IMG/VR virus record: IMGVR_UViG_3300046000_004071
Span: 1-22,519 of that record
Source of the DNA: a virus
Reading direction: 5' to 3' (one strand)
Length of the DNA: 22,519 nt
Shown here: positions 133 to 20,009 of the stretch, in pieces
Numbering within the stretch: position 1 is the first letter of the stretch
How the letters are laid out: each line of letters starts with the position of its first letter
The notes under the pieces: model-generated
Databases searched by the model: none
The model's input: only the letters and a program-made list of their open reading frames with translations
Told to the model about the DNA's origin: nothing
Made by a program: the position numbers and the translations under genes

Positions 133-168
133 AAAAAAGCCCCGTAGAGACCACACTCTACAGGGCTT
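133..168 (-). terminator. Rho-independent terminator of the leftward gene block
   Basis: Read on the minus strand, AAGCCCTGTAGAG pairs with CTCTACGGGGCTT as a 13-bp stem with one G-U pair and a 6-nt loop. It is followed directly by six U residues (plus-strand A run 133-138). The G-U pair appears as a C/A mismatch when read on the plus strand, so it is built for leftward RNA. It lies 120 bp after the stop of the last leftward gene. Confidence 0.85.
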
Positions 169-287: not shown

Positions 288-533
288 TCAATCAATATCA
301 ATGTGGTACTGGTTCATCAGTGCAAAGAACTTCTCAAATACTCTATCCACTGCCTCATGCCCTGATACTTCTTGCCCTGCATCTATGTCTGTCTCTATCT
401 GCCTTTCAATAGGCTTCCTTACGTTGTAAGCCATCTCCCAGAGCACTTGTGTCATGTAGCGTGCCTGTAGTACCTCTCCGAACTTCCTGTATTCTTCAGG
501 TTCATCCAGATCAAACTCTAGCGTAGCCTTCAT
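288..533 (-). CDS. Acidic small protein, last gene of the leftward block
   Basis: An 81-residue acidic protein (start MKATLEFDLDEPEEY, end NQYHIDID). The shape resembles a group of short phage proteins that start with MKATLEF-like residues and contain a VLWEM/VLWD segment, which I recall only as hypothetical proteins. No signal peptide or membrane segment is seen. AGGAGGGG lies just before the ATG, a strong ribosome binding site. Unlike nearly all its neighbours it does not overlap the gene before it. It follows a 66-bp gap that carries its own strong promoter (558-585), and the leftward terminator follows it. It can therefore be made as a single-gene transcript. Function unknown; a host-takeover or anti-defence role would be only a guess from the expression layout. 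Confidence 0.8.
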   Translation of the reverse strand: MKATLEFDLDEPEEYRKFGEVLQARYMTQVLWEMAYNVRKPIERQIETDIDAGQEVSGHEAVDRVFEKFFALMNQYHIDID

Positions 534-557: not shown

Positions 558-585
558 ATTGTAACTGCTCTATGAATCTTGTCAA
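558..585 (-). promoter_or_regulatory. Sigma70-type promoter for the terminal small gene
   Basis: On the minus strand a perfect TTGACA -35 (plus 580-585) is separated by 16 bp from TACAAT (plus 558-563), five of six matches to the -10 consensus. The start site would be near 551, giving a leader of under 20 nt before the ATG at 533. It is one of the best sigma70 matches in the window and lies in one of the few gaps of the leftward block. Confidence 0.75.
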
Positions 586-599
586 GAGATTACTTCAGA

Positions 600-1736
600 T
601 TAGAACCTGGGCACCGTACCTAGTTTGTAGAGCTTCCAATCAAGAGGAGTGCTACCGTAAGCGGCGTACAGCTCGGCCCCTGTATACGGCTCCAAGTTCA
701 ACCAGTTGACTACTGAAAAGCCTACCTCTTCCTTCAGCAATACTCTGTAACAAGGGGTGAGTCCCGTCTCTATTGGCACGAACACATCCCCAGTGTCTCC
801 TGCCTTAACAAAGACCCTACCGTCTGGCAGCTTGGCACCTACCCAGATGTTAGCTTCCTTACCTGTCTCATGCTGCTCAGGCACCAGTCTGGCCTGACAT
901 AAGAACCTGTTAAGCAATTCCATCTTAATGCCCGGTGTCTCTGGTACGTTGTAACCATCGAAGTCCCGTATTACCCAAGCCTCAAAGAACATCTCGTCTA
1001 CGATCCAGTAGGGCAGACCACAGAAGCCCCCATCACCCCACTCCTTGCCCCAGCTGTTCTGCACCAGGAACTTACCTGCGCTGTCGTCATACCCTACGAT
1101 AACCATGTAGTGCCCACCAGCGGTGCTGAACGTGCTGTTGAGTCCTTTGTAGTCGTGTAGCCGCCATGCTCCCTTGAGTCCAAACAGTGACGTAGTCACC
1201 ATCAGCGCAAACATCACTGGCATCCCCTCATCCAGTGCCGCCTTGACTCGCATGATCCTGTCGTGTCTATCCAGCCCTTGATGCAGCCAGTTGACGTAGA
1301 CGGCCTCATACCGCTTCACCTTGGCCTCTGCTGCTGCCTTGAACATTTCATCACTGGGTATTACGTCCTTAAAAGCCTCGGTGTAGTCGAAATCCACCTC
1401 AGAAGGGATACCGTAGCGGTACGCAGCCTTTAAGGCATCCCTTGGTATCATCCCTTCTGGCGAGTCTTTGGTGAAGCCACTAATGGCCCTTCCTACGTTA
1501 TACACAAACATCCTAGACAAGTCTATGCTCTGCCCGTGCTTGTTTGCCAACCACTCACAGGCGCTCCCTACCCCATTAGCTACACACGTACCGTAGGAGC
1601 CTTGATCTTCTACTTCCTCCACGTTAGGCATCAAGTCTACACTGGCGGGGAAGCCGCTGGTGCGCTTAGGTACAAACGGTATATCGCGTTGATCTGGCTG
1701 GGACGGTAGCGTGCTTACTGTATAATTTATTGTCAT
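600..1736 (-). CDS. Papain-like (C1 family) cysteine peptidase
   Basis: A 378-residue protein with the full catalytic set of a papain-fold peptidase. Gln45 (oxyanion hole) and Cys51 sit in the block DQGSYGTCVANG, His209 in GGHYMVIVGYD, and Asn227 in QNSWGKEWGDGGF. The mature-enzyme region starts close to the N terminus (about residue 30), so there is no long inhibitory propeptide and no signal peptide; it should act in the host cytoplasm or in a virion. About 110 residues after the core (270-378) look beta-rich and may be a separate domain. The ATG overlaps the stop of the upstream DUF3310 gene (ATGA) and follows GAGGAGG. It is the last gene of the main leftward operon, beside replication genes and far from the virion genes. 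Possible jobs are cleaving a host protein, maturing a phage protein, or amidase/deamidase chemistry on another bond. The fold call is firm; the target is unknown. Confidence 0.88.
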   Translation of the reverse strand: MTINYTVSTLPSQPDQRDIPFVPKRTSGFPASVDLMPNVEEVEDQGSYGTCVANGVGSACEWLANKHGQSIDLSRMFVYNVGRAISGFTKDSPEGMIPRDALKAAYRYGIPSEVDFDYTEAFKDVIPSDEMFKAAAEAKVKRYEAVYVNWLHQGLDRHDRIMRVKAALDEGMPVMFALMVTTSLFGLKGAWRLHDYKGLNSTFSTAGGHYMVIVGYDDSAGKFLVQNSWGKEWGDGGFCGLPYWIVDEMFFEAWVIRDFDGYNVPETPGIKMELLNRFLCQARLVPEQHETGKEANIWVGAKLPDGRVFVKAGDTGDVFVPIETGLTPCYRVLLKEEVGFSVVNWLNLEPYTGAELYAAYGSTPLDWKLYKLGTVPRF

Positions 1737-2062
1737 TGAGCCTCCTCAATCAGTTTGTTGAGATACCACTGCGCCTTCTGCAAGTCCTGCTTGGGCTTGC
1801 CCTTGTAGTTGTAGCGCCACAGGTACTTCAAAGTGTTGCCCTTCAAGTAGCCCTTGAACTCCTCTGCTGACATCGAGGCCTTGATGGCTTCAATGCACTC
1901 CACCTTACCGGTGTTGTAGTGCTCTGGTCGGTTCACTTCGTCATTCTTAGGCGCTTCGTCTACAAAGCGAGGGACGCGCCTGTCGCGTAGAGTCTCAGCG
2001 TACCTAGAGACATCCAGCCGCTCCCGCATTAACTCATCCCACTCTTTAGCTGTTCCTGACAT
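1733..2062 (-). CDS. DUF3310 protein (T7 gp1.7-type C-terminal domain)
   Basis: A 109-residue protein. Its second half has the DUF3310 signature: VNRPEHYN near residue 45, then GKVECIEAI, FKGYLKGNTLKYLWRY and a final DLQKAQWYLNKLIE helix. DUF3310 also forms the C-terminal part of T7 gp1.7, reported as a nucleotide kinase; in most phages the domain stands alone without a proven role. The N-terminal 40 residues are charged and unrecognised. The ATG at 2062 is chosen over the GTG just before it because GGAGG then sits 6 nt upstream; the start also overlaps the previous stop as TGATG. The neighbours are a metallophosphoesterase and the peptidase, so it belongs to the operon tail. A role in nucleotide metabolism is inference from gp1.7. 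Confidence 0.85.
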   Translation of the reverse strand: MSGTAKEWDELMRERLDVSRYAETLRDRRVPRFVDEAPKNDEVNRPEHYNTGKVECIEAIKASMSAEEFKGYLKGNTLKYLWRYNYKGKPKQDLQKAQWYLNKLIEEAQ

Positions 2063-2829
2063 CACAGACCTCCGTATTTACGTTTAAGGTAAGACATAGA
2101 GATAGGCATTTCGTCAAAGGCACCGTTGCGTACATCGTTCAACATCCACACTCCCCGCCAGCTCTCATTGCCTTGATTGCCCAAGTAGTCTTCACTGTGC
2201 TGGTAGAAGATGCCTGCAAAGATGCCTGTCATACTCGTACCGTCTGCACGCTTGCCGTAGGCTATATCCCTGTCCTGCACATGCCCCATGATACAGCTCA
2301 TGTGCTTCTTGGTCAGTAGCGCCCTAGCACTCGTTACTGGCCTTCCCATAGCCCCTGAAGCAAAGTAGTGGCTAAAGGCTACCCCCTCTATGGTGACTAC
2401 ATCAAGGAATGGGTACACCTCAAAGCCCCACTGCTCTAGCCCTAAGTCTTCGTAGCCTAGCATCCCTTCCAGTTTTGAATCGTCCTCTACTGCGCGGTGT
2501 ATCCTGCCTTCGTGATTCCCTAGCGTGAACACTAGGCGAGGCTTCCACTGCTTCTCCTTATTGCGCCTGAGGCGCTCCTGCTCCTCCAACACGGGTGCCA
2601 TGAACAATGCCATAGCCTCACGCCCTGCTGCAATGTCGTTGATGTATCTACGCCCTTCAAACGACTTCTTACCCTTGTCGTAACTACTCAGGCTTGGCAT
2701 GTCCCAGTGGTCGCCTATGAATACTATTGCGTCAGGCTTCCTGTCTACTGCGTATCTCCCTGCCCACAACAAGTGGTCTATCGGTACTCCTGGTTTTACC
2801 TGGGTGTCAGGTATCACAAGAATGCGCAT
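2062..2829 (-). CDS. Calcineurin-like metallophosphoesterase
   Basis: A 255-residue protein with the ordered metal-binding motifs of the calcineurin-like phosphoesterase superfamily: DTQ near residue 8, GDHWD near 40, GNHEGR near 104, SHYF near 153 and GHVQDRD near 182. These supply the Asp, His and Asn ligands of a two-metal centre that hydrolyses phosphomono- or diesters. Phage members are often labelled phosphoesterase or nuclease without a known substrate. AAGGAG precedes the ATG at good spacing. It follows a small membrane-protein gene after a 9-bp gap and overlaps the DUF3310 gene. Phage members of the superfamily include lambda phosphatase and RNA-processing enzymes, so a nucleic acid or nucleotide substrate is possible but not shown. 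Confidence 0.88.
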   Translation of the reverse strand: MRILVIPDTQVKPGVPIDHLLWAGRYAVDRKPDAIVFIGDHWDMPSLSSYDKGKKSFEGRRYINDIAAGREAMALFMAPVLEEQERLRRNKEKQWKPRLVFTLGNHEGRIHRAVEDDSKLEGMLGYEDLGLEQWGFEVYPFLDVVTIEGVAFSHYFASGAMGRPVTSARALLTKKHMSCIMGHVQDRDIAYGKRADGTSMTGIFAGIFYQHSEDYLGNQGNESWRGVWMLNDVRNGAFDEMPISMSYLKRKYGGL

Positions 2830-3022: not shown

Positions 3023-3433
3023 TCATCCTCTCAAGCGTTTAGGTAACGTGTGCGGGGTGTAGTGCTCAAAGCCATTCTTATCTGCCCACTGCCCCATTGT
3101 GAGCCTAGTGCCGTCTGTCCTGCGGGGTGATCCCGGCATAGGCGTTCCTGCGTCCATAAAGACAAACACCAGACGCTCTGACTCGTTCAAACCCTTCCGT
3201 ACATCTACATACTTTCTTGCTTCGCCTCTGTCCCTGAAGCGGCCCTTAGCCTCAAAGTAGTAATCTACTTCTGCTATCTTCCTGTGGAAGTCAGGGTAGT
3301 ACGTCTTCTGCTGCACATACGCCACGCCGCTAGGGTGAAACTCTGCGCTCTTCAGCGGCCCTGTAGCAAGGTCGTATTCAAACCAACTATCATACCCTTT
3401 AGGTGGCTTAGTCTTCTTACGCTTTGCTGTCAT
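3023..3433 (-). CDS. T7 endonuclease I-type Holliday junction resolvase
   Basis: A 136-residue nuclease that resolves branched DNA and, in T7, helps break down host DNA. The active-site pattern of T7 gp3 is visible: Glu18 in DSWFEYDL, Asp47 in YYPDF, and Glu60 and Lys62 in YFEAKGRF, matching T7 Glu20, Asp55, Glu65 and Lys67. Length is close to the 149 residues of the T7 enzyme. The C-terminal GSPRRTDG...MGQWADKNGFEHY also fits. The ATG at 3433 is chosen because it overlaps the exonuclease stop as ATGA; an upstream extension to 3457 would lie inside that gene. It follows the 5'-3' exonuclease directly, so the two nucleases are translated together, as expected for recombination and packaging-intermediate processing. 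Confidence 0.9.
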   Translation of the reverse strand: MTAKRKKTKPPKGYDSWFEYDLATGPLKSAEFHPSGVAYVQQKTYYPDFHRKIAEVDYYFEAKGRFRDRGEARKYVDVRKGLNESERLVFVFMDAGTPMPGSPRRTDGTRLTMGQWADKNGFEHYTPHTLPKRLRG

Positions 3434-4110
3434 ACAGGCTCCACTGGCGGTTGCCACAGTTGATTAGGGATACGCCTAAGCCACAGTAGCCTAGCGTTCT
3501 CCAGCGCCCTCTCAGGGCTTCCTAGCAGCTCTACGCACTTGGCGTACATCTTGGCTTCTGTGTCCAATTCTGCCAGTGCCTTCAGCGCCTTCTTGGGGCC
3601 AATGCCGTACACCCCTTCGATGTTATCTATCCTGTCTCCTACCAGTATCTGACAATAGAAGTTCAGGATGGCTTCCTTTTGCGTCACGTAGTAGCGTATG
3701 CGCTTGACGAAGTTATAGTGCCATCCTGGAACCTGATCAAAGTCCTTGTCGATTGAGCAGATGATAGCGGTATTGCCTCTAGCCGTAGCTTCGATGGCTA
3801 TTCTATCGTCTGCTTCCTCGCCTTTGGACAGATCGGACGGGTGAGAAGAGAGCAAATGAGCGCGAATGTCGTCAAGATGCTCAGGCTTCTCAGCCGTCCT
3901 ATTGCCTTTGTACTCCTTAGTGACAGCTATATCCTTCCTGTAGTTCTCTTTACCACTGATGAACACGGTGTAGTCTTTGATCTCAGGGTCTACTTCACTT
4001 ACCATATTGGTAATGTACCCGTCAGCTATTCTTTTCATGTCATCCAGTGATTCAGCTTCCTTGCTGAACACCGTCCTGTAGCAGATTATGTCGCCGTCAA
4101 TGAGGAGCAT
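3430..4110 (-). CDS. 5'-3' exonuclease, flap endonuclease family (T7 gp6 role)
   Basis: A 226-residue protein of the FEN/5' nuclease family. Metal-binding acids are seen in MLLIDGD at the start, GEEADD near residue 97 and SIDKDFDQVPG near 118. A final block, LVGDRIDNIEGVYGIGPKKA, holds further acids plus the helix-hairpin-helix DNA-binding motif. A basic stretch (KEYKGNR) near residue 65 matches the arch region. It would remove RNA primers and degrade 5' ends; T7 gp6 does this and is needed for replication and host DNA degradation. Its stop overlaps the endonuclease I start. No clear Shine-Dalgarno precedes its ATG, which lies 3 nt after the SSB stop, so it probably relies on translational coupling. 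The order SSB, exonuclease, endonuclease differs from T7. Confidence 0.9.
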   Translation of the reverse strand: MLLIDGDIICYRTVFSKEAESLDDMKRIADGYITNMVSEVDPEIKDYTVFISGKENYRKDIAVTKEYKGNRTAEKPEHLDDIRAHLLSSHPSDLSKGEEADDRIAIEATARGNTAIICSIDKDFDQVPGWHYNFVKRIRYYVTQKEAILNFYCQILVGDRIDNIEGVYGIGPKKALKALAELDTEAKMYAKCVELLGSPERALENARLLWLRRIPNQLWQPPVEPV

Positions 4111-4894: not shown

Positions 4895-6562
4895 CTAGTG
4901 GGTCTGTGCCCAATTTAGTCCTGCTTTGTACTCGCCTGCCAGAGGACACCTCATACTGAAGTGTTCCCCTGCCTTACGTATAGCGTCTGCTCCCATCTGC
5001 CCTACAGTCTCTGCCTGCTCTGGTGTTGCTTCAATCTGCCACTCGTCGTGTATGTTCAACACAAAGGCAGGATCAATACCAGCAGCCCGTAGATCGTTGT
5101 AGAGAATCACTAGCGCCTTCTTCATCACAATGGCCCCTGCTCCCTGCAATAGTGTGTTCAATGCAGCGTGTGCGCTGCGTACCCACAACCTCCTACCGTC
5201 TAAGCCAGGAAGATAACCCCTTGCTGCCAGTGTGTCTACCTTTGACTTCAAAGCCCGTAGAGCTGGAGTAGCGGCCATGAAGCTGTCTATCATCTTCTGC
5301 CCTTCTTTGTATCCGCCGCCTGCTATACTGCCGATCTTACCCGGCCCTGCTCCGTACAGGAAGGCGTAGATAAACGTCTTCGCATCGTCCCTGCTCGACA
5401 GCCCCGCTGCCTTCTGGTTCATCGTGTGTACATCAGTGCCTTCTTTACTACTGCCAGACACTACAGCGTTAACGTAGTCCATATCCCGCATGTAATGTGC
5501 CAGCATCCTAAGCTCCAAGCCGCTAGCGTCTATCCCTACCAACACCTTACCCGGTGTGGCTGCAAACAACCCCCTGCACTCCTTCCCTAGAGAAGTCCCC
5601 ACCTTAGGCACCTGTGCCAAATTAGGGCTTAAGTGTGTCATGCGCCCCGTAGCGGCTCCGTTGGTGATGACCCTACCGTGTATCCTACCGTCTTCGGCTA
5701 CTGCCCCGTTCCAGCTAGCTACAAGCCCTTGCCGCTTCTGTATCGTAAGGTACTCGTTCAGCAGCTTGGCCTCTGGCGTGTCCAGCCCCGCCAGTGTGTC
5801 CTCATCAATCTTGTAGCGCCCTGTATCTGTCCTGCCAGTGAGGCTGTGTCCTAGTCCCCACTCAAACATCTTCTCTACTATCTGTATTCTGCTGCCTATG
5901 TTGAAGTGCTCCAGCCTTGGCTTCAGAGGCTTCTTCGTAGCTATGCTGTACTGCTGTACTTCTCTTGGTGGGCATAGCCGTGCGAAGTGTGCCTCCAGCT
6001 CTGCCATCCGGTACTCAACTGCTTCTAATAGCGCCTTCCCTGCTTCTTTCCGGTAGTAAACTCCCCTTGCTACCTGCTTCTCTATAATGAAGGCTACCTC
6101 ATGCTCCAGCATTACTGCTTCAGCTGAAGTCTCATACTCCTTTATCTCTTGCAATAGTGCCTTATGTGTTGCTCTGGTAACTTCTATGTCCTGCTTGCAG
6201 TACGTTGCCTTTGCTTCATCTAGTGGGCTGTCGTGATCGGTGTAGTCTCCTTTGGGAAGCCCCAGACGGCCTCCCCAGGCATCAAGGCTATGTCCTTCGA
6301 CCCTGTCAGGGTAGTTCACACGGGAGACCAGTAGCGTATCGTACATCTTGCTGAAGGGGATCACTACGCCCCAGACCCGCTTCAGTACAGGGGCGTCGAA
6401 GCTAACTATGTTGTGTCCGATAACAGTGGTGCTGTTAGCGATCAACTGCTTCAACTCGGTTATGTCAGTGATTATGTAGGGGGCTTCCCCGTCCTTGGCG
6501 ACCCCTGCACACCAGACAGTGTCATGGGCATAGTTGGTTTCGATGTCCAGATAGAGATTCAT
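4895..6562 (-). CDS. DNA polymerase, family A, T7 type with 3'-5' exonuclease
   Basis: A 555-residue replicative polymerase. Proofreading domain: Exo I LDIET at residue 5, Exo II GHNIVSFDAP near 49, Exo III YCKQDIEVTRA near 121. Polymerase domain: motif A VGIDASGLELRMLAHYM, motif B with Lys and Tyr in AKTFIYAFLYGAG, and motif C LNIHDEW near the C terminus, all very close to T7 gp5. It is about 150 residues shorter than T7 gp5 (704). Where T7 carries its 76-residue thioredoxin-binding insertion, before the FNxxSR block, this protein has only a short stretch (CPPREVQQYSIATKKPLK). It may therefore use another processivity factor or none. Its ATG overlaps the previous stop as ATGA and follows GAGGATGA. 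Confidence 0.95.
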   Translation of the reverse strand: MNLYLDIETNYAHDTVWCAGVAKDGEAPYIITDITELKQLIANSTTVIGHNIVSFDAPVLKRVWGVVIPFSKMYDTLLVSRVNYPDRVEGHSLDAWGGRLGLPKGDYTDHDSPLDEAKATYCKQDIEVTRATHKALLQEIKEYETSAEAVMLEHEVAFIIEKQVARGVYYRKEAGKALLEAVEYRMAELEAHFARLCPPREVQQYSIATKKPLKPRLEHFNIGSRIQIVEKMFEWGLGHSLTGRTDTGRYKIDEDTLAGLDTPEAKLLNEYLTIQKRQGLVASWNGAVAEDGRIHGRVITNGAATGRMTHLSPNLAQVPKVGTSLGKECRGLFAATPGKVLVGIDASGLELRMLAHYMRDMDYVNAVVSGSSKEGTDVHTMNQKAAGLSSRDDAKTFIYAFLYGAGPGKIGSIAGGGYKEGQKMIDSFMAATPALRALKSKVDTLAARGYLPGLDGRRLWVRSAHAALNTLLQGAGAIVMKKALVILYNDLRAAGIDPAFVLNIHDEWQIEATPEQAETVGQMGADAIRKAGEHFSMRCPLAGEYKAGLNWAQTH

Positions 6563-6753
6563 TCATCCTCGCCCCCGTAGTAGATATCGCCCAGTTCTTC
6601 AAACTTGCGTAGATCAGCTCTTTCGGTTACTTCAAAAGAGCCACGCACACTCTCGTAGCACGTATCACACAAGTCAAGGAACTCCTTCGACTCGGCATAG
6701 CGCCTGGTGGCTTCAAAGTCACTCAGCGCCCTCTGACAAGCTAAACATCTCAT
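6559..6753 (-). CDS. Small Cys-pair (zinc-ribbon-like) protein
   Basis: A 64-residue protein with two Cys pairs: MRCLACQRALSDFEATRR at the start and LCDTCYESV near residue 30. The CxxC pairs flank a short helix and resemble a zinc ribbon. Phage proteins with the same RCxxC..ALSDFE..R start are common and unassigned. The rest is acidic (EELGDIYYGGEDE). It is overlapped at both ends by ATGA junctions, with the methyltransferase-like gene before it and the DNA polymerase after it, so it is translated with them. A small DNA- or protein-binding adaptor is plausible; function unknown. Confidence 0.75.
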   Translation of the reverse strand: MRCLACQRALSDFEATRRYAESKEFLDLCDTCYESVRGSFEVTERADLRKFEELGDIYYGGEDE

Positions 6754-7904: not shown

Positions 7905-8373
7905 CCCCCTCCGCCATAAGCGCACCCGCTGTAGTGTTTCTGAAAAGAAAATGATTGATGATACGCACTGCTGAAGCCCTTGCTATGCCCTTGATCGGAT
8001 TGAAGTCCGCCATGAGAAAATCAACAACCTCAACAGCTCTGTCTTCGTCACCGGTCAGAAGCCACTCATGCATCAGCTCTGTCTTCTCTCCTGGGGTACA
8101 CAGGCTCACCAGCTGCGCGTAGAACTGCTCTTCTCCGCCGATGGTAAACCCGTAGGTGCCGTCCTCTGTCTCCCTGAGTATGCCATCGTCCGCGCCATAC
8201 ACGATGGCTCGCTTGATCTTCGTGTCCAACGTACTGGACGGTGTTGTTGCTGGCGGTGCCGGGGCCACACCGAATGCCTTCTCCAAGTCTTGGAAGGCTT
8301 CTTGATGCGCCCTCAAGCTAGTGAGGATGTCCTGCAAACTCAATTCTTGTGCTGTAGTCATAATATGCCTCAT
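7894..8373 (-). CDS. Unknown protein downstream of primase-helicase
   Basis: A 159-residue soluble protein. It has a helical N terminus (LQDILTSLRAHQEAFQDLEKAFG), a Pro/Ala/Thr linker near residues 37-47, and an acidic mixed alpha/beta remainder ending AEGDDD. I recognise no family. The start chosen overlaps the primase-helicase stop as ATGA; an alternative ATG four codons in (MTTAQEL) is possible. The tight coupling and acidic C-terminal tail might suit a replication-fork partner, since acidic tails are common in such factors, but this is speculative. Confidence 0.6.
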   Translation of the reverse strand: MRHIMTTAQELSLQDILTSLRAHQEAFQDLEKAFGVAPAPPATTPSSTLDTKIKRAIVYGADDGILRETEDGTYGFTIGGEEQFYAQLVSLCTPGEKTELMHEWLLTGDEDRAVEVVDFLMADFNPIKGIARASAVRIINHFLFRNTTAGALMAEGDDD

Positions 8374-10004
8374 AGTTGATTTTCCAGCTCTGTCATCCGC
8401 CCTGTCTGGCGGTTGAATTGCAATAGCGTAGCCACCCCACTACTGCCTGTCAAGCGGTCTTTCAGGACTCGCAGCGTCAAAAGGTCACGCTTGCTTGGTT
8501 CCTCGTCTTGCGTGTTGCGCTCTACAGCCACGACTGCATCTGACAGCTGCGCAATGCTGCCACTGCCGCGTAGTAGGCTCAGTGTCACCTTGGCACCTTC
8601 TTCCAGTGGCTTACCATCTGGGCGGGTAAGGTGGCTTACAACGTGCAGGCTGCACCCTGTCTGCTGCACAACCTCTGTGCGCAGGCGAGTCATCAACTCG
8701 TCAATGCTCTGGCGTTCGTTACTTGTCGCGTTGCCGCTCACGATGATGCTAATGTGATCCAGGATCAACAACCTGCATCCCATAGCCTTCGCCATGTAAC
8801 GCAGGCGGCTGATCACGCTATCGATCTGGCTGCTGCCCCAATGATCCCACAGCTGCACTCTATGTCCGAGGCCCAGGGAGTCAAACGCAAGGTCAACCTC
8901 ATCCGGCGTGTACTCTACGCCATCAATGTGCATTCTCTTGCCCATGTGAAGCCCTGCCAAGCCTCTGAGAGTGCGTTCTGGGGTCTCTTCAAGGAAGGCA
9001 AGGCCCATGTTCCACTCAGTCTGCTGAAGGGCGTGTATGACGATCTCGCGCAGCACAGACGACTTACCTACGCCAGACCCTGCGCACCATGTCACCAAAG
9101 TGCTGTCATACACGCCCCGCAGCATGTTGTTGAGACCTTTCCACGGATAGAGAAGGTCAGGTGCCGCTATAGGCTTCTTAAGCGCCTCGCGTAGACTTTC
9201 AGCAGCTACGATGCCGTCTGGCACATAACGCTCGGCCTTCCAGAAGGCGTTCATAAACTCACCTGTCTTGCCCTTCTGGTAATACTCGCAAGCGTCTTTG
9301 ATGCCCTGCGGGTGTCTCATCACACGCGACTTCCCGCCGAACAACTGCGCTACCTCTTTAGCTGCTGCCTGTCCTGCTTCATCATTGTCAAAGTTGATGA
9401 CGATGTTCTCAAAGCTGTCGAGCCACTGGTAGGCTGCTTTACAGTCCGCCAGCGCACCTCTGGCTCCGTTCTTGATGCTCACCACCGGGTATTTGCTGCC
9501 CATCAGCTGGTAAGAGGCCATGGCGTCTTCTTCCCCTTCGCAAACGGTGACGTACTTGCCACTACCGGCAGGGAATAACTGCTGGCCGAATAGCAGCGCC
9601 AGCTTCTGGTCACCTACCCAAGGGAAAGTCTTGCCCTCATGGATGCGCGTCTTGATCGCGTTTGGTACTGTTGGGTTGTCTACGCCAAAATAACCGTACA
9701 ACGTCTTGTCTGGCATGTGCTGAGTACTGAACAGCCGTGCTGTTGCGCCTGTGATCCCTCTTGCTGGACATCCTGGGAACTCGCCTGTGCTTAACTGGTG
9801 CAACACAGCTCCCCACGATGGCTTGGGCAGTGGCTTTGGCTCATAGCCTATGCTGTCACCACTTCCAGCTACTGCACCGTTCAGGAAGCCCTTGTTGCAG
9901 CTAAAGCAGTGAACCTTGCCGTTCTCATCAGTACTCGCGGCATCACTGCTGCCGCATTTGTCTTGGTCTGGGCAGGCATGGTGTGTCTTGATCCACTTAC
10001 TCAT
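8370..10004 (-). CDS. Bifunctional DNA primase-helicase (T7 gp4 type)
   Basis: A 544-residue replication protein with three parts in order. Residues about 11-36 form a zinc-binding domain (C11, C17, C33, C36). The TOPRIM primase core has VCEGEEDAMAS near 158 and NFDNDEAG near 205. The C-terminal ring helicase has Walker A AGSGVGKSS near 303, Walker B LLILDH, a HVVSHLTRP segment and RGSGSIAQLSDAVVAVERN near 490. Length is close to T7 gp4 (566). It unwinds DNA and lays down primers for the family A polymerase encoded 2 kb downstream. The ATG at 10004 overlaps the upstream gene's stop region and has AGGGG upstream; a longer frame to 10034 adds residues inside that gene. Confidence 0.95.
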   Translation of the reverse strand: MSKWIKTHHACPDQDKCGSSDAASTDENGKVHCFSCNKGFLNGAVAGSGDSIGYEPKPLPKPSWGAVLHQLSTGEFPGCPARGITGATARLFSTQHMPDKTLYGYFGVDNPTVPNAIKTRIHEGKTFPWVGDQKLALLFGQQLFPAGSGKYVTVCEGEEDAMASYQLMGSKYPVVSIKNGARGALADCKAAYQWLDSFENIVINFDNDEAGQAAAKEVAQLFGGKSRVMRHPQGIKDACEYYQKGKTGEFMNAFWKAERYVPDGIVAAESLREALKKPIAAPDLLYPWKGLNNMLRGVYDSTLVTWCAGSGVGKSSVLREIVIHALQQTEWNMGLAFLEETPERTLRGLAGLHMGKRMHIDGVEYTPDEVDLAFDSLGLGHRVQLWDHWGSSQIDSVISRLRYMAKAMGCRLLILDHISIIVSGNATSNERQSIDELMTRLRTEVVQQTGCSLHVVSHLTRPDGKPLEEGAKVTLSLLRGSGSIAQLSDAVVAVERNTQDEEPSKRDLLTLRVLKDRLTGSSGVATLLQFNRQTGRMTELENQL

Positions 10005-10248
10005 TGATAAACCCCTGGCGTAGTGTGAGAGCATCTAGTGCCTGTTCATGCGCGTACAGCTCTGCTGCCATCTCTTCAATATCATCAGGCCACAGATCAT
10101 ACTCTACTGCTGCCTGTTCGGATGTGCTTGTTCCGTGCATCACCTCTTTGGCTGCACGGTAGAGCGCCTGATCCACCTCGCTCCAACGCGATAATACTCT
10201 TTCCAGTCTGCATGTGTACTGGTCGCCTTCTCTGAAATACGTTCTCAT
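9997..10248 (-). CDS. Unknown small protein before primase-helicase
   Basis: An 83-residue acidic helical protein (start MRTYFREGDQYTCRLERVLSRW). A near-perfect Shine-Dalgarno GGAGGTGAT immediately precedes the ATG at 10248, which decides the start over a longer frame. The middle, DQALYRAAKEVMHGT...AVEYDLWPDDIEEMAAELYAHEQALDAL, resembles a helix-turn-helix-like arrangement, but I cannot assign it. It is the first gene after a 128-bp gap that holds a candidate promoter (10273-10301), so it may open a sub-operon that carries the primase-helicase. Confidence 0.7.
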   Translation of the reverse strand: MRTYFREGDQYTCRLERVLSRWSEVDQALYRAAKEVMHGTSTSEQAAVEYDLWPDDIEEMAAELYAHEQALDALTLRQGFINE

Positions 10249-12101: not shown

Positions 12102-12746
12102 TCAAAAGCGGCGCGGCATGATTACGAATTCGCCCTTGTCGCAATATCCCCGCGCTGCTGAATTAGGATCAACGGGACTATACAACATTGCATTGCCACC
12201 GGCGATACACTCGGCCATTAAAGCAGCATCAAAAATCGCCTGCTGGTAGGTAACAGGCAGATCATCAGTAACAGTATTCCTTGTCAGAGTATCAACACGG
12301 ACAAGGAATACTTTTGAATCCTCATGCTTTTCACGGGGCAAGGTATCAAGCCTAATTGCGGCCGCCCCTTGTCTGCTAATTTCAGGGATCACGCGGTTAA
12401 TATCGGGAAACCGGATACCATCCATTCCTGCTACCGGTGCGCCTGTTTTCGGGCAGTAGTAGCCCGCAGGTAAGTCAGAGGGAAACCATGCAAGAATATG
12501 CCCGTTAGTCGCGACAATCCTAGCGCCATCGCTGTAAAGGTAACGAAGATATTCCCGGGTATCCTTTTTAGCAACAAAGCCGGCAAGCCAGGACATAGCT
12601 GTTTTGGCCGATTTTGGTGGCGCGAAGTAAAGTAACAACGCTTGGATTTGATAATCAGACAATATCTGACCCGCTGCTAAAGTCTGTACCATAGCGTAGG
12701 CTTCTGCTTTTGTTGCTGGTTTAATGCCTGCATTGATAGTAATCAT
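12102..12746 (-). CDS. Sliding-clamp (DnaN)-like protein, putative
   Basis: A 214-residue protein. The block DTREYLRYLYSDGARIVATNGHILAWFPSDLPAGYY (near residues 60-97) matches the style of beta-clamp domains (xTRxYLxGV...VATDGHRLA), and FPDINRVIP (near 113) matches the clamp FPDxxxVIP segment. It is shorter than DnaN (about 366 residues, three domains), so it would represent about two domains or a clamp-derived protein. GAGGAATACC precedes the ATG at 12746, which is chosen over an upstream frame. A clamp could serve as processivity factor for the phage polymerase, which lacks a full thioredoxin-binding insertion, or interfere with the host clamp. The fold is inferred from short motifs only. 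Confidence 0.55.
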   Translation of the reverse strand: MITINAGIKPATKAEAYAMVQTLAAGQILSDYQIQALLLYFAPPKSAKTAMSWLAGFVAKKDTREYLRYLYSDGARIVATNGHILAWFPSDLPAGYYCPKTGAPVAGMDGIRFPDINRVIPEISRQGAAAIRLDTLPREKHEDSKVFLVRVDTLTRNTVTDDLPVTYQQAIFDAALMAECIAGGNAMLYSPVDPNSAARGYCDKGEFVIMPRRF

Positions 12747-12774
12747 GGTATTCCTCATGTTAGTTGGTTGTTGT

Positions 12775-12987
12775 TTAGTAACCAAGTGTGTACAGCGTGT
12801 GGCCGAGTTTGGTGTATGGGTTGTTACGTGCGGATTCGATAGCAATGATTGCATCTACTTTGAAAGTGTGTGCACCAACCTGGTCGGGTGTAGCAGTCCC
12901 GGTGCCTTTGCAAGCTCCGCACTCAGCGCCGCCGTACAGTGCAGCAAGTAGTGTGATGCCAGCGCCATTGCAGTTTGTGCAGGTCAT
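12775..12987 (-). CDS. DnaJ-type CxxCxGxG zinc protein
   Basis: A 70-residue protein with two CxxCxGxG motifs, CTNCNGAG at residues 3-10 and CGACKGTG near 23-30, as in half of a DnaJ cysteine-rich domain, enough to bind one zinc. The C-terminal 40 residues (VGAHTFKVDAIIAIESARNNPYTKLG) are not recognised. There is no J domain. GGAGAGACAAC precedes the ATG. A promoter-like sequence (13039-13067) and a C/A-rich leader lie upstream. Such mini zinc proteins could modulate a host chaperone or bind single-stranded nucleic acid; unproven. Confidence 0.65.
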   Translation of the reverse strand: MTCTNCNGAGITLLAALYGGAECGACKGTGTATPDQVGAHTFKVDAIIAIESARNNPYTKLGHTLYTLGY

Positions 12988-13814: not shown

Positions 13815-13931
13815 GGCGCTTTGCTCCTCTTGTGTGTGTTGATTGTTTGTTTGCCTGCACACAATACAATGCAGACTCCATGCCAACTTTACCAATATCA
13901 ACAACGTCAATACAATCAATGAGTTATAGGT

Positions 13932-13959
13932 TAGCGGGCACTAACACAGATACCCGCTA
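13932..13959. repeat. Inverted repeat TAGCGGG / CCCGCTA
   Basis: Perfect 7-bp arms at 13932-13938 and 13953-13959 with a 14-bp spacer, centre to centre about two helical turns apart. It flanks a possible leftward promoter zone, so an operator for a dimeric regulator is plausible. Confidence 0.5.
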
Positions 13960-13960
13960 T

Positions 13961-14019
13961 TGTGTTACTTTGTTACTGTCGGTATCACTTGAGGTAACAC
14001 ATTAGGTAACAGGTAACAC
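13961..14019. repeat. Cluster of GTAAC/GTTAC elements
   Basis: Five copies in 59 bp: GTTAC at 13964-13968 and 13972-13976, then GTAAC at 13994-13998, 14006-14010 and 14013-14017. The first and third form a perfect 8-bp dyad TGTGTTAC / GTAACACA. Three more copies follow further right (14516, 14671 and 14684). The arrangement resembles multiple protein binding sites. Confidence 0.6.
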
Positions 14020-14132
14020 GTGCTCGAGTGCTACTATATAGGACTTATGTGTACCCGCTTCGCCCTTCACCCTTGTGCTACCTAGTCTACAATTATGACT
14101 CACCAGTCAGTTTTCCTGGGCTGTTAGAACAC

Positions 14133-14144
14133 ATGTTATAACAT
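14133..14144. repeat. Perfect 12-bp palindrome ATGTTATAACAT
   Basis: A self-complementary 12-mer with no spacer. This is typical of a small homodimer binding site and is not inside a gene. Confidence 0.5.
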
Positions 14145-14284
14145 AGGTGGGCCTCGATTGATGCCACCGGGGGCGGGACGCTAGTGTGGAATTGTAGCAG
14201 TACCACCCCAGACACAAAATAGAGCAAAAGTGAGATCAAGGGAGTTGGTCAAATTAACCAATATGTGGCGCATTATACCTCTAT

Positions 14285-14313
14285 TGGGTATGAGCCTACC
14301 TAGACTGGGTATG
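14285..14313 (+). repeat. Direct repeat TGGGTATG, 21-bp period
   Basis: Two identical 8-mers at 14285-14292 and 14306-14313 start exactly 21 bp apart, so they face the same side of the helix. A third partial copy, TGGGTAT, lies at 14450-14456. Confidence 0.45.
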
Positions 14314-14483
14314 TGTCTGTAAGTGATTGATTACATTAGAGAACTCTATCGGCGGCTGCGGTGCCGAGCAGACGCGCTACCCCCGCACCGTACGGCTCAG
14401 GTAAGGGTCAGTGCTGTATCGCCCTGTGGGTGATGTTGGTAGGGGTCATTGGGTATATGGGGACGATAAGACAATGCGCAGTG

Positions 14484-14516
14484 CTAGCGTCCCACTAGCG
14501 TGTCATAGGCGACACG
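14484..14516. repeat. CTAGCGT direct repeat plus 18-bp dyad
   Basis: CTAGCGT occurs at 14484-14490 and 14495-14501, an 11-bp period. It runs into the dyad CGTGTC / GACACG (14499-14504, 14511-14516). The 10-mer CTAGCGTCCC (14484-14493) is the inverted copy of GGGACGCTAG at 14175-14184. Confidence 0.5.
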
Positions 14517-14574
14517 TTACAGGCACTAAAGTGGCCTTAGAGGGCAGATATGGCAGGTAAGTATATTATAATAG

Positions 14575-14583
14575 TTATCCACA
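14575..14583 (+). other. Consensus DnaA box TTATCCACA
   Basis: A perfect match to the 9-bp E. coli DnaA box. It sits in an AT-rich stretch seven bases upstream of the -35 of the main rightward promoter. It could recruit host DnaA for origin firing or regulate the promoter. Confidence 0.5.
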
Positions 14584-14589
14584 TAAGTA

Positions 14590-14618
14590 TTGACTTTTGT
14601 CTCAGAATGTGATATAAT
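14590..14618 (+). promoter_or_regulatory. Main rightward sigma70 promoter
   Basis: TTGACT (14590-14595, 5/6) and a perfect TATAAT (14613-14618) are separated by 17 bp. The start site near 14625 gives a leader of about 210 nt before the AT-hook gene. This is the clear promoter for the packaging and structural genes, or an early start for them read by host polymerase. Confidence 0.8.
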
Positions 14619-14711
14619 CAGAACTGTATTGAAGGTTTGGAGAGTATACATACTAAGGCGGCTCAGTAGGGTAACCAACCACTGTAACTACCTTAGACTG
14701 ACACAAAGTAG

Positions 14712-14814
14712 CGACATGTCGATTAGTCACTTGAAGTAATAATCAATAATAGTTAACACTAACTGACAACAAGACGCTAAAGGGCTACGGTAGTCAATTA
14801 AATTGCCACCGTAG
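14712..14814. repeat. Dyads in the rightward leader
   Basis: CGACATGTCG is a perfect 10-bp palindrome at 14712-14721. CTACGGT (14785-14791) pairs perfectly with ACCGTAG (14808-14814), and the loop itself contains the dyad CAATT-A-AATTG. AGTTA/TAACT (14751-14755, 14760-14764) is a third, weaker hairpin. The last dyad ends about 20 nt before the first ATG and could control translation or bind a regulator. Confidence 0.5.
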
Positions 14815-14835
14815 TACATGACGAGACAATAAGTA

Positions 14836-15345
14836 ATGGTGTCCACTACTAGTAATAACCCTTCTGGTCAAGATGCCTTGGTGTCCCCTTTAAGGGATGC
14901 GGTGTCAGCCGAAGAGGCTTCGGAAACGTCGCAGAACGACACTGCGAAGTCACCGAAGATAGGGAGACCTCCCAAAAAGGATATTGTGTCCAAGACCAAG
15001 GGGCATATGGCTAAACGTGGTAGACCTCCTGGCGAAGCGTCCGCAATGGCGGCATTCAAAGCGAGGCTTATCAACTCCCCTAAATCCCGTAAGGTGATAG
15101 ATAGCATTATCAATGCGGCACTTGATGATAACCACAAGAATCAATCAGCGGCATGGAAGATACTGGCAGATAGGATACTACCACTAAGTCAGTTTGAGAA
15201 AGGGGTTAGCAATAAGAGTGCTATAACAATCAACATCAGCGGTCTGGGCGAAGCGAACATAACTGCCTCAGACGATGAGGAAGATCAGTCAGTAATTGAC
15301 GGAGAGTATTCTGATGTTGAAATCGAAGACTACGAGCAAGAGTAA
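14836..15345 (+). CDS. AT-hook protein, candidate small terminase subunit
   Basis: A 169-residue protein with two AT-hook-like motifs, KIGRPPKKD near residue 41 and KRGRPPGEA near 60, that would grip AT-rich minor grooves. A helical segment follows (AFKARLINSPKSRKVIDSIINAALDDNHKNQSAAWKILADRILP), then a very acidic C terminus (DDEEDQSV...DVEIEDYEQE). The position, first in the packaging block and three genes before the large terminase, fits a DNA-recognising small terminase, and the N-terminal DNA-binding plus helical core would suit that. The RBS is weak (no GGAGG), so translation may depend on leader structure. It could instead be a regulator binding the nearby AT-rich control region. Confidence 0.7.
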   Translation: MVSTTSNNPSGQDALVSPLRDAVSAEEASETSQNDTAKSPKIGRPPKKDIVSKTKGHMAKRGRPPGEASAMAAFKARLINSPKSRKVIDSIINAALDDNHKNQSAAWKILADRILPLSQFEKGVSNKSAITINISGLGEANITASDDEEDQSVIDGEYSDVEIEDYEQE

Positions 15346-15778
15346 GGCAAAGCCTAAAGCTATTGCAAGGATGAAATGGTGTTCCCGTGTTTTGGTTACT
15401 TCTCCTCTATATCTTGGTCTGTGTACTTCTGAGCTTTCCTACCGACGAGAACTAAAGCGGCTAGGTGTAGATAATCCCAGTGAGTGGTTAGAGGAGTCAG
15501 ACGTAGGCAGGGTTCACCAGTTTGAAGAAGAAGGCGGTGCTATCGCTATGATAATCTGTATCAGGCCTTCTGACTGCCAGCGCACGGTACAAGCGACCGT
15601 AGTACATGAAGCAGTTCACGTTTGGCAGTTCGTCAAGGAATACATAGGCGAGAAAGAGCCTAGCAAAGAGTTTGAAGCCTATAGCGTAGAGAACATCTAC
15701 ACAACTTTAATGGACGCATACAATGAGCAGCACCCCGGCAGCGCCTCCAAAGCGCGGCGTAACACCAAAAGAAAATAG
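15314..15778 (+). CDS. Zincin-like HExxH protein
   Basis: A 154-residue protein with the metallopeptidase motif HEAVH (about residues 98-102) followed by EFEAYSVENI near 119-128, where a Glu could be the third zinc ligand. This pairing recurs in a small phage protein family of unknown substrate that I recall from podophages. The N-terminal 25 residues are basic (KSKTTSKSKAKPKAIARMK). The ATG at 15314 is chosen for its upstream GGAG; a TTG at 15296 and an internal ATG at 15371 are alternatives. It overlaps the AT-hook gene at its start and the lysozyme gene at its end, so all three are translated together. Confidence 0.7.
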   Translation: MLKSKTTSKSKAKPKAIARMKWCSRVLVTSPLYLGLCTSELSYRRELKRLGVDNPSEWLEESDVGRVHQFEEEGGAIAMIICIRPSDCQRTVQATVVHEAVHVWQFVKEYIGEKEPSKEFEAYSVENIYTTLMDAYNEQHPGSASKARRNTKRK

Positions 15779-16241
15779 TATCAAGGTGCTGAAACATCTC
15801 CTGAAGGAGACTGAACTCCCTAAGTCCCTGCTAGTAGCCATGATGGCGAACATAGCGGTAGAGACTGGGTATATGTTTGATTACACAATAAAGCAGAAAG
15901 GCAAGCGCACTGATCCTGCCTTTGGCTTGTTCCAGTTTGACCCCAGAGGCGGTTTAGCCTCGCTTTACCGAGATTATCTCGAATACCGTAAGTGTGACGA
16001 TTCTGCCGAAGCGCAAATAGATATGCTGGTGGACATCATGCTAAAGGTATGGAAGCCTGGGGTCTCCCATGTTGGGGGTGGTAACGTCAACAAAGTGTTG
16101 GAAGCGGCTCAAGAAGGCCATGCTCCGGCAACGGAGGCGTTCTGCTCCCACATCCTTAGACCCGGTAAGCCCCACCTTGACAGGCGCATAGCCGCCATCA
16201 CGATGGTAGAGAGCTTACTGGCAGAAGTAGTAGCAGTTTAA
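15723..16241 (+). CDS. Phage lysozyme (tail-lysozyme / muramidase type)
   Basis: A 172-residue protein with the block NIAVETGYMFDYT (Glu47 the likely catalytic acid) and DPAFGLFQFD near residue 65, the signature of phage tail lysozyme-type muramidases that cleave the peptidoglycan sugar chain. No signal peptide or transmembrane anchor is present, so if it is the endolysin it needs a holin, and none lies beside it. It starts inside the HExxH gene and ends against the terminase start (TAATG). The clustered position between packaging genes is seen in several podophages; a virion-entry role is also possible. Confidence 0.8.
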   Translation: MSSTPAAPPKRGVTPKENSIKVLKHLLKETELPKSLLVAMMANIAVETGYMFDYTIKQKGKRTDPAFGLFQFDPRGGLASLYRDYLEYRKCDDSAEAQIDMLVDIMLKVWKPGVSHVGGGNVNKVLEAAQEGHAPATEAFCSHILRPGKPHLDRRIAAITMVESLLAEVVAV

Positions 16242-17506: not shown

Positions 17507-19555
17507 ATGACTGAAGATTTTGAAACTGAAGATTTCTCGATAGAGCAGACCCTCTCTGGTTGGGTAATGGGGAAGGTAGAGGCTTGGAAGGAGCACTATG
17601 ACTCCGAGTATCGCCAGAAGCACGAAGAGTATTACCGTATCTGGCGCGGTCACTGGGCTGCTCAGGACAAGACCCGCGAGAGCGAACGCTCCAGACTTAT
17701 TAGCCCCGCAACCCAACAAGCCGTAGAGTCCTCCGTGGCTGAGATTGAAGAAGCTACCTTTGGCCGTGGCCGCTGGTTTGACATCAAAGACGACTTGCAG
17801 GACGAAGAAAGTGGAGATGTCAGCTACCTGAAGAAGAAGCTGTACGAAGACTTTCAGAAGCAGAAGATCAGAAAGGCTACGGCAGAGTGCTTGCTCACCA
17901 GCGCCGTGTATGGCTCAGGGATTGCAGAGGTGTGCATTGAGACCGTCAAGGAGATGGCACCAGCCACTCAGCCTATTATGGACGGGCAGTTGCAGGCAGT
18001 AGGTGTCAACATCACTGATCGCACTGTGGTTCGCTTGCGTCCTATCCTGCCCCAGAACTTTGCTATTGATCCAGCCGCAGTGGATATTGCAGACGCGCTG
18101 GGGTGCGCTATTGATGAAGACGTCCCCACCCACGAGATTGAAGAAAAGCAGGAACAAGGCGTTTACAAGAAGGTAAGGCTAGACACCTCCGTATGGGAAG
18201 ACGACCGCGAGCCTGATATTACCATCCAGCGTCCGGCAGAAGGGCGTACACGCCGTACTACCTACTTTGGCAAGGTTCCCCGTGAGCTGTTGGAAGCGGC
18301 TCGTCAGGAAGAAGGGGTAGAGGTTGTAACCCTCACCGAAGACAGTGAAGAAAAGTCCAAGTATGTTGAGGCTATCGTAGTGATTGCTAACGGTGGTGCC
18401 CTCCTGAAGGCCGAGGAGAACCCCTACATGATGCAAGACCGTCCTGTCATAGCTTTCCCTTGGGATATTGTCCCTGGGCGATTCTGGGGCCGTGGAATCT
18501 GCGAGAAGGCCTATAACAGCCAGAAGGCACTGGATGCCGAGCTGCGTGCTCGTCAGGACGCCTTGGCGCTCACTGTACACCCGATGATAGGGGTAGATTC
18601 TACTCGTATGCCGCGTGGTATGAGTATGGACGTACGCCCCGGCAAGACCATCCTTACTGTTGGCCCTCCGGGCGACGTTATCCAGCCTATTCGACTGGGC
18701 GCTGTGGATCAAGTTACCTTTGTGCAGGCTGAGGCACTCCAGCGTATGCTCCAGATGGCTACAGGCGCAATAGACAGCGCTGGGATAGCAGGAAGCATCA
18801 ACGGTGACGCTACCGCTGCTGGTATCTCCATGAGCCTAGGCGCTATCATTAAACGCCACAAACGTACCTTGATTAACTTCCAGGAATCGTTTATAATCCC
18901 GTTCGTAGAAAAGGCGGCATGGCGCTATATGCAGTTTGACCCTGAACACTACCCGGTCAATGACTATAAGTTTGTAGCTACCTCCTCACTTGGCATCATT
19001 GCCAGAGAGTACGAAGTTACCCAGCTCACTCAATTGCTTCAGACGATGGGCCAAGACAGCCCTCTGTATGCTCCCCTTGTTATGGCTATTGTAGACAACA
19101 TGAGCCTGGGCAACAGCGAGGAACTCAAGAAGACCCTCACAGCAGCCTCTCAGCCTTCGCCTGAAGCACAACAGGCAGCACAGGCACAGCAGGAGAGCCA
19201 GTTGCGCTTCCAAGCCTCTCAGTCGGCTGCTCTGGAAGCTCAGGCAAATGAGTCTGCCGCAAGGGCAGCTAAGTACGTTGAAGAAACCCGTATGCTGCCT
19301 TTTGAGTTGCGTATAAAAGCAACTGAGGCAGCGACTAAGAACATGAAGTCGTCTGGTAACGAAGGCGATGAGTTTGAGAAGCGCATAAAGCTGGTACAAA
19401 CGCTGCTGGATGAGCGCAAGGTAGCCCTCATGGAGAAGAAAGATGAAAGGGAATCCAAAGCTCAGGAAGGCTCTGGAGACAAAGCCATGAAGTACCTTGA
19501 GTCTGCTGCTGAAATGGAGATGGACTTGATGCGGAGGCTAAACAATGGACAGTAA
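17507..19555 (+). CDS. Portal protein
   Basis: A 682-residue protein directly after the large terminase. The opening pattern (KVEAWKEHYDSEYRQKHEEYYRIWRGHW, then SRLISPATQQAVESSVAEIEEATFGR) is that of a podophage portal family. A central region follows (RPVIAFPWDIVPGRFWGRGICE, then the helix QKALDAELRARQDAL), as in portals. The last 170 residues are Gln/Ala/Glu-rich and predicted coiled coil, matching the barrel or crown of a long portal. Twelve copies should form the ring at one head vertex through which DNA is packaged and ejected. Its end overlaps the collagen-like gene by 11 bp. Confidence 0.88.
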   Translation: MTEDFETEDFSIEQTLSGWVMGKVEAWKEHYDSEYRQKHEEYYRIWRGHWAAQDKTRESERSRLISPATQQAVESSVAEIEEATFGRGRWFDIKDDLQDEESGDVSYLKKKLYEDFQKQKIRKATAECLLTSAVYGSGIAEVCIETVKEMAPATQPIMDGQLQAVGVNITDRTVVRLRPILPQNFAIDPAAVDIADALGCAIDEDVPTHEIEEKQEQGVYKKVRLDTSVWEDDREPDITIQRPAEGRTRRTTYFGKVPRELLEAARQEEGVEVVTLTEDSEEKSKYVEAIVVIANGGALLKAEENPYMMQDRPVIAFPWDIVPGRFWGRGICEKAYNSQKALDAELRARQDALALTVHPMIGVDSTRMPRGMSMDVRPGKTILTVGPPGDVIQPIRLGAVDQVTFVQAEALQRMLQMATGAIDSAGIAGSINGDATAAGISMSLGAIIKRHKRTLINFQESFIIPFVEKAAWRYMQFDPEHYPVNDYKFVATSSLGIIAREYEVTQLTQLLQTMGQDSPLYAPLVMAIVDNMSLGNSEELKKTLTAASQPSPEAQQAAQAQQESQLRFQASQSAALEAQANESAARAAKYVEETRMLPFELRIKATEAATKNMKSSGNEGDEFEKRIKLVQTLLDERKVALMEKKDERESKAQEGSGDKAMKYLESAAEMEMDLMRRLNNGQ

Positions 19556-20009
19556 GCTCCTTGTCCTTGCCTTAGATGAGAAGTTCACCAAACAAATAAA
19601 ATCAGTCAAACAAGAAGTAGAGACACTTCAGCACATAAAGCTACAGGTTCCTGAGAAGGGAGATAAAGGAGATAAGGGCGACACCGGCCCTAGAGGCGAG
19701 AGAGGGCCAAAAGGAGAGGACGGCCTCAAAGGGCGCACTGGCGACCCCGGTCTTCAAGGCCCAGAAGGCCCGCAAGGACTTGACGGCGTAAGTGTAGTAG
19801 ATGTCAGGGTAGACCTTGATAATCACCTTGTAGTCTCCTTTTCAAACGGTAATGAAGTAGACGCTGGTGAGATTCTTGTACCTGATGGCCCAGGAGGAGG
19901 CACAACCAATGTAGTAATCCAGCGCACTGATGGCACCGAGGGCGGAGGAGGAGGTACTGAAGGTATCTCTGAAGAACTTGTAATTGCTTATGCTGTTGCA
20001 CTAGGGTAA
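19545..20009 (+). CDS. Collagen-repeat fibre-like protein
   Basis: A 154-residue protein: a helical N terminus (MDSKLLVLALDEKFTKQIKSVKQEVETLQ), then 14 unbroken Gly-X-Y triplets from Gly39 to about residue 80 (KGDKGDTGPRGERGPKGEDG and onwards), then a beta-rich part (VSVVDVRVDLDNHLVVSFSNG) and a Gly-rich tail. Such triplets fold as a triple helix, so this is probably a trimeric fibre or spike on the head or neck. Its ATG lies inside the end of the portal gene, with GGAGG 7 nt upstream, so it is made together with the portal. Phage proteins with a GVxVxDxRxDxDxxLVVxxSNG end are known structural or fibre-like hypotheticals. Confidence 0.8.
   Translation: MDSKLLVLALDEKFTKQIKSVKQEVETLQHIKLQVPEKGDKGDKGDTGPRGERGPKGEDGLKGRTGDPGLQGPEGPQGLDGVSVVDVRVDLDNHLVVSFSNGNEVDAGEILVPDGPGGGTTNVVIQRTDGTEGGGGGTEGISEELVIAYAVALG

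Follow-up and report, generated by a model that had tools for sequence, protein, structure and literature searches.

The peptidase gene and its surroundings

The window analysed here is a stretch of 22,519 nt of viral DNA (IMG/VR record IMGVR_UViG_3300046000_004071), whose features are collected in Table 1. On its minus strand lies a replication set of the T7 type, i.e. primase-helicase, family A DNA polymerase (Pol), exonuclease, endonuclease, metallophosphoesterase and DUF3310; the assignment of an SSB-like gene is weak (E 0.057). The open reading frame noted in a preliminary description of this DNA, which left the strand unstated, was confirmed as a genuine gene and lies on the minus strand. 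Its product matches the Pfam family PF00112 (Peptidase_C1) with an E value of 8.8e-12 (46 bits, against a curated cut-off of 20.7) and also PHROG 16701, a peptidase family. The closest solved relative by sequence is xylellain (PDB 3ois; E 2.1e-24 over residues 10-257 of the phage protein). No PADLOC model matched the peptidase at E values up to 0.1. A second metagenome holds the same phage (locus L072), extending beyond the window on the peptidase side, and the two peptidases differ by a single residue change, L178M.

The start of the peptidase gene overlaps the stop of the DUF3310 gene by 4 nt (ATGA) and is preceded by a ribosome site, GAGGAGG; the coupling to replication genes claimed earlier thus holds, and the peptidase is predicted to be translationally coupled to the replication operon. 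Of the longer genes it is the final one ahead of a strong terminator-like hairpin, beyond which lie convergent late genes; an 81-aa ORF intervenes. Among the viral loci compared this small ORF was found in this phage only, and since no other carrier of the peptidase was seen to have it, it was rejected as a candidate cognate inhibitor. The promoter-like sequence between the two is one of three such matches in this region, where 2.7 would be expected, i.e. there is no excess over chance.

Table 1. Features of the window discussed in the text
Feature	Position	Strand	Basis
Terminator-like hairpin closing the operon, 13 pairs, T tail	137-168	-	Sequence
81-aa ORF downstream of the peptidase	288-533	-	Sequence
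Promoter-like TTGACA-16-TACAAT (11/12), between peptidase and 81-aa ORF	558-585	-	Consensus match only
Xylellain-type C1A (papain-family) cysteine peptidase gene, 378 aa	600-1736	-	PF00112, 3ois match, model
C-terminal beta-sandwich domain, codons for residues 266-378	603-941	-	Models, alignment
Papain-fold catalytic domain, codons for residues 29-262	951-1652	-	Pfam, model, structure matches
N227, third catalytic residue (NSWG motif)	1056-1058	-	52/52 relatives
H209, catalytic histidine	1110-1112	-	52/52 relatives
C51, catalytic cysteine	1584-1586	-	51/51 covered relatives
Q45, oxyanion-hole glutamine	1602-1604	-	50/51 relatives
Short N-terminal segment with D15-x-R17-D18, codons for residues 1-28	1653-1736	-	Counterpart of xylellain N-terminal segment
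DUF3310 gene, carries peptidase ribosome site	1733-2065	-	PF11753, E 1.1e-21
Metallophosphoesterase gene	2062-2829	-	phrog_221, E 4.2e-53
Phage endonuclease gene	3023-3457	-	phrog_945, E 1.4e-21
5'-3' exonuclease gene	3430-4110	-	phrog_107, E 1.1e-57
Family A DNA polymerase (Pol) gene	4895-6562	-	PF00476, E 3.9e-49
Small conserved CxxC...CxxC protein, 64 aa, adjoining Pol	6559-6753	-	Comparison of loci
T7-type primase-helicase gene	8370-10034	-	phrog_239, E 4.8e-161
Separate phage lysozyme gene	15723-16241	+	PF18013, E 6e-7

Several other features of the window are recorded here in their own right. The small CxxC protein, which has no family match above cut-off, is found upstream of Pol in most of the relatives compared (33-94% identical), and its gene overlaps the Pol start by 4 nt. 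A 250-aa ORF (12102-12854, minus strand) gives weak matches to RusA-type, DNA polymerase and processivity-factor profiles and is possibly clamp-like. The divergent early and late gene sets are separated by ∼0.9 kb (13920-14835) with no ORF of at least 60 aa except at its ends, which is likely to hold a control region. Between a small ORF in the position of the terminase small subunit and the lysozyme gene there is a 160-aa ORF (15296-15778, plus strand) with a zinc-peptidase-like HEAVH motif, which matches phrog_882 (function unknown; E 2.2e-17) and, weakly, the putative metallopeptidase family DUF6782. A collagen-like Gly-X-Y repeat protein (19545-20009, plus strand; PF01391, E 1.9e-8) is encoded directly 3' of the portal gene.

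Fold, active site and N-terminal segment

The preliminary description proposed structure prediction, comparison with C1 peptidases and a check of active-site conservation. An AlphaFold2 model built from an alignment of 52 bacterial and viral sequences (mean pLDDT 91.4, pTM 0.87) has the papain fold. Its top structural match is 3ois (Z 31.7, 1.8 Å over 239 residues, 30% identity), the next papain-fold chains follow at Z 25, and papain-fold chains overall span Z 22-32; Foldseek and structural alignment agree that xylellain is closest in fold as it is in sequence. The four active-site residues lie where they had been noted and are near-invariant in the alignment (Table 1). Some of the aligned relatives had been retrieved with the patterns WGK[ED]WGD and WG[KE][ED][WY]GD, and because these begin directly after N227, intact surroundings of N227 were favoured in its count of 52/52; C51 and H209 were absent from every pattern used in those scans. 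By sequence, then, the protein is assigned to papain family C1A, xylellain type, with all catalytic residues present. Inactive papain-fold proteins do exist, e.g. PDB 2b1m among the structure matches, and the phage protein could in principle be a binding protein that has lost catalysis; however, with every catalytic position conserved this is hardly credible.

At its N-terminus the protein was said to have neither a signal peptide nor a long inhibitory propeptide. The former was borne out, as no hydrophobic signal or membrane segment was found in the peptidase (highest 19-residue Kyte-Doolittle mean 1.38). The latter is literally true but misses a short segment of the xylellain type, in which D15, R17 and D18 are kept in 35, 38 and 36, respectively, of the 43 relatives that cover it. 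The sequence alignment to 3ois begins at residue 10, while the model superposes on 3ois from residue 4 and on pro-cathepsins from residue 1; most mature plant enzymes align to it only from residue 29. In xylellain the N-terminal segment reportedly blocks the active site, and the same structure paper is said to describe a regulatory ribonucleotide site. Because the first 25-28 residues of the phage enzyme match the start of xylellain, and given the blocking role reported for it, they are likely to form a short latency segment.

The lack of export features bears on a role in lysis, in which the enzyme would cleave peptidoglycan cross-links or envelope proteins. Among distant phage relatives lysin settings do occur: that of THSA-485A is beside a GH25 gene and that of MMB025 is in a gene annotated as an endolysin. 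However, the phage peptidase has no signal peptide or membrane segment, and its nearest structures are protein peptidases rather than NlpC/P60 or CHAP enzymes; neither of these families was among the Pfam families listed to E 0.1, a result that is compatible with cell-wall activity even so. A lysin role is further weakened because the lysozyme gene of this phage is a separate one located elsewhere, so we regard it as very unlikely. The amidase activity suggested in the preliminary description fits poorly on the same two grounds.

The C-terminal beta-sandwich

A C-terminal beta domain had been placed at about residues 270-378. It is present, the model putting it at ∼266-378, and when these residues were modelled alone they formed a separate beta-sandwich (pLDDT 84.6). 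The domain was seen in five phage loci only, namely the window/L072, L002, L178, L227 and L236. It had no profile match in Pfam, PHROGs or NCBIfam and no relative among PDB sequences (best E 0.36); a viral scan with the beta-sandwich as query returned nothing beyond the members already found, and further viral scans for the fused group added no members. In bacterial relatives from a genome scan the match is almost always confined to residues 10-260; a single weak one (L037) extends to residue 352. Structure matches of the beta-sandwich are led by Ig-V chains, at a level within background (best Z 7.3, Foldseek E 0.065). A likeness to a C-terminal domain of secreted bacterial proteins was dropped when searches gave no support for it. 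The beta-sandwich may bind a partner and in this way narrow the range of targets.

Distribution and descent of the fused peptidase

The search for the same fusion in related phages, as had been suggested, was successful: complete two-domain peptidases were found in the metagenomic relatives L002, L178 and L227, and in L236 the last 193 residues are encoded where the contig ends, next to convergent genes of tail type, in an 11.7 kb record where no related polymerase was found. The complete forms are found in three slots of the same T7-type replication operon: in the window the gene follows DUF3310 with a start/stop overlap, in L002 it is closely spaced between the small CxxC gene and Pol, and in L178 and L227 it separates Pol from the SSB-like gene; the gene order around it is otherwise much as in the window. 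Identity to the window peptidase is 45% for L002 over 390 columns and 34-35% for L178 and L227.

In the tree the four complete fused enzymes group together as a clade (support 97/88), and L229 is next. For the pairs window-L002, window-L178 and L002-L178, respectively, identities are 48, 34 and 34% for the peptidase, 57, 41 and 40% for the primase-helicase and 53, 43 and 46% for Pol. The peptidase identities parallel those of the two replication proteins, which is consistent with shared descent together with movement of the gene within the operon; transfer is possible too. For the L178/L227 pair dN/dS is ∼0.25 (0.22 for the catalytic part and 0.31 for the C-terminal part), and the peptidase appears to be under purifying selection, both parts alike.

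Among 70 loci with relatives of both Pol and the metallophosphoesterase, some being overlapping copies (L073 and L152 belong to a single contig) and 36 extending less than 1.5 kb beyond the metallophosphoesterase, with only the inner slots visible in many of those, the peptidase was found in four (L072, L002, L227 and L178) and not found in the other 66. Whole-record searches of 32 such relatives, none of the records being listed as at least 90% complete, also found no peptidase. Because most viral records are fragments, absence is sure only for the operons that are covered. One such case is L073 (primase-helicase 97% and Pol 90% identical), where DUF3310 is followed by the convergent late genes with no peptidase between them and the whole record is negative. 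The peptidase is therefore an accessory gene, patchy among near-identical phages.

This distribution also bears on the proposal that the peptidase trims a phage replication or regulatory protein and so switches between stages of infection. All of the complete members (4/4) are located among replication genes, as would be expected; nevertheless, so close a relative as L073 manages without the peptidase, and we consider such a switch highly improbable.

Function of the peptidase

Cleavage of a host protein, maturation of a phage polyprotein and an amidase activity were the roles put forward in the preliminary description. Of these the first fits best, given how unevenly the gene is distributed over very close relatives, and the other two fit poorly. 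Maturation would involve late cleavage of a phage structural protein or polyprotein, e.g. a virion or ejection protein, and it gains something from the position of the gene, which adjoins the late genes where these end convergently, and from L229, where a related enzyme is encoded downstream of virion and ejection-type genes and in the same direction. In L002 and L178, however, the peptidase lies deep within the replication operon, and the role is weakened because L076 and L155 carry an internal virion protein homologue (53 and 43%, respectively) at this junction and have no peptidase. We therefore think maturation unlikely.

Papain-family enzymes are often broad in specificity. Together with the coupling of the gene to replication genes, this would suit general proteolysis of host proteins, with no defined target, supplying amino acids during replication. 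The conserved fused beta-sandwich and the likely latency segment instead suggest control and targeting, and unrestricted cleavage in the cytoplasm would endanger the phage's own proteins; we judge general proteolysis to be distinctly unlikely.

The best explanation of the sequence data is that the gene encodes what is predicted to be a catalytically competent, cytoplasmic peptidase of the xylellain type, carried by a tailed phage. The patchiness, the coupling to replication, the conserved catalytic residues and the conserved additional domain together suggest that the enzyme is optional and acts on a host protein; to this reading, in which a cytoplasmic protease is coexpressed with the replication proteins, we give a probability of about 0.5. 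The enzyme would be made partly latent, its first 25-28 residues occupying the active-site cleft in the manner of xylellain, and would be released by displacement of this segment or by self-cleavage. Its target might be a defence or regulatory factor of the host, whose cleavage would favour DNA synthesis by the phage only in certain hosts; a benefit limited in this way would explain why near-identical phages gain and lose the gene. Patchy phage peptidases have been considered likely to target host proteins and conserved ones virion proteins (PMC7824862), although patchy presence is also compatible with any dispensable function. A more specific version, in which a papain-family effector protease that is latent at its N-terminus is directed by an Ig-like domain to a single defence or regulatory protein of the host and is carried as optional cargo in varying operon slots, is offered as a tentative possibility.

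Cleavage of host proteins by phage-made proteases has often been proposed and seldom demonstrated. A compact, intact enzyme with a presumed targeting domain, together with natural pairs of closely related phages with and without it, would make the question testable, and a defined substrate could lead to a host factor, perhaps one of its defence proteins, that restricts DNA synthesis by the phage.

Comparison with known systems

Xylellain shares with the phage enzyme the papain fold over peptidase residues 4-261, including the N-terminal segment, and the same catalytic residues. It is, however, bacterial and without a C-terminal beta-sandwich of this kind, whereas the phage gene stands in a replication operon. 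Papain and cathepsins with an I29-type propeptide likewise have the fold and active site in common with the phage peptidase, which differs from them in lacking a propeptide of I29 length and a secretion signal.

On phages the same catalytic family is found in THSA-485A, Burkholderia phage FLC9 and Alicyclobacillus phage MMB025, but those peptidases are only ∼26-30% identical, in the catalytic part alone, as the match stops before the C-terminal domain, and they are located either close to lysins or on a jumbo phage. Outside the fused clade, the closest catalytic domain is of the L229 type (IMG/VR; 39% identical), which has a proline-rich linker and a hydrophobic C-terminal helix instead of the beta-sandwich, and a late-gene setting; no related polymerase was found in the L229 record. 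From its sequence the hydrophobic C-terminus looks like a membrane anchor, and because this cousin combines a late-gene setting with an anchor-like C-terminus, related enzymes can act elsewhere. Related phage peptidases with a proline-rich linker are encoded at L229:7938-8942, L237:7959-9002 and L240:7914-9071, those of L229 and L237 ending in a strongly hydrophobic segment and being probably membrane-anchored. On a 74 kb viral contig, L230:7758-9491 encodes a xylellain-type peptidase with a long, very acidic Glu/Ser/Tyr-rich repeat tail, its frame being open to the edge of the stretch compared.

Phage papain-fold enzymes with an intact triad in a replication operon had been called uncommon. 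C1A genes of xylellain type are already on record from Myoviridae and Siphoviridae (PMC10380794), so the rarity does not extend to the family on phages; what seems uncommon is the fused domain combined with a place in a replication operon. The open-access literature searched yielded no description of a phage C1A peptidase encoded in a replication operon, nor of the fused form in one of T7 type, and this beta-sandwich-fused lineage of replication-operon peptidases appears to be new.
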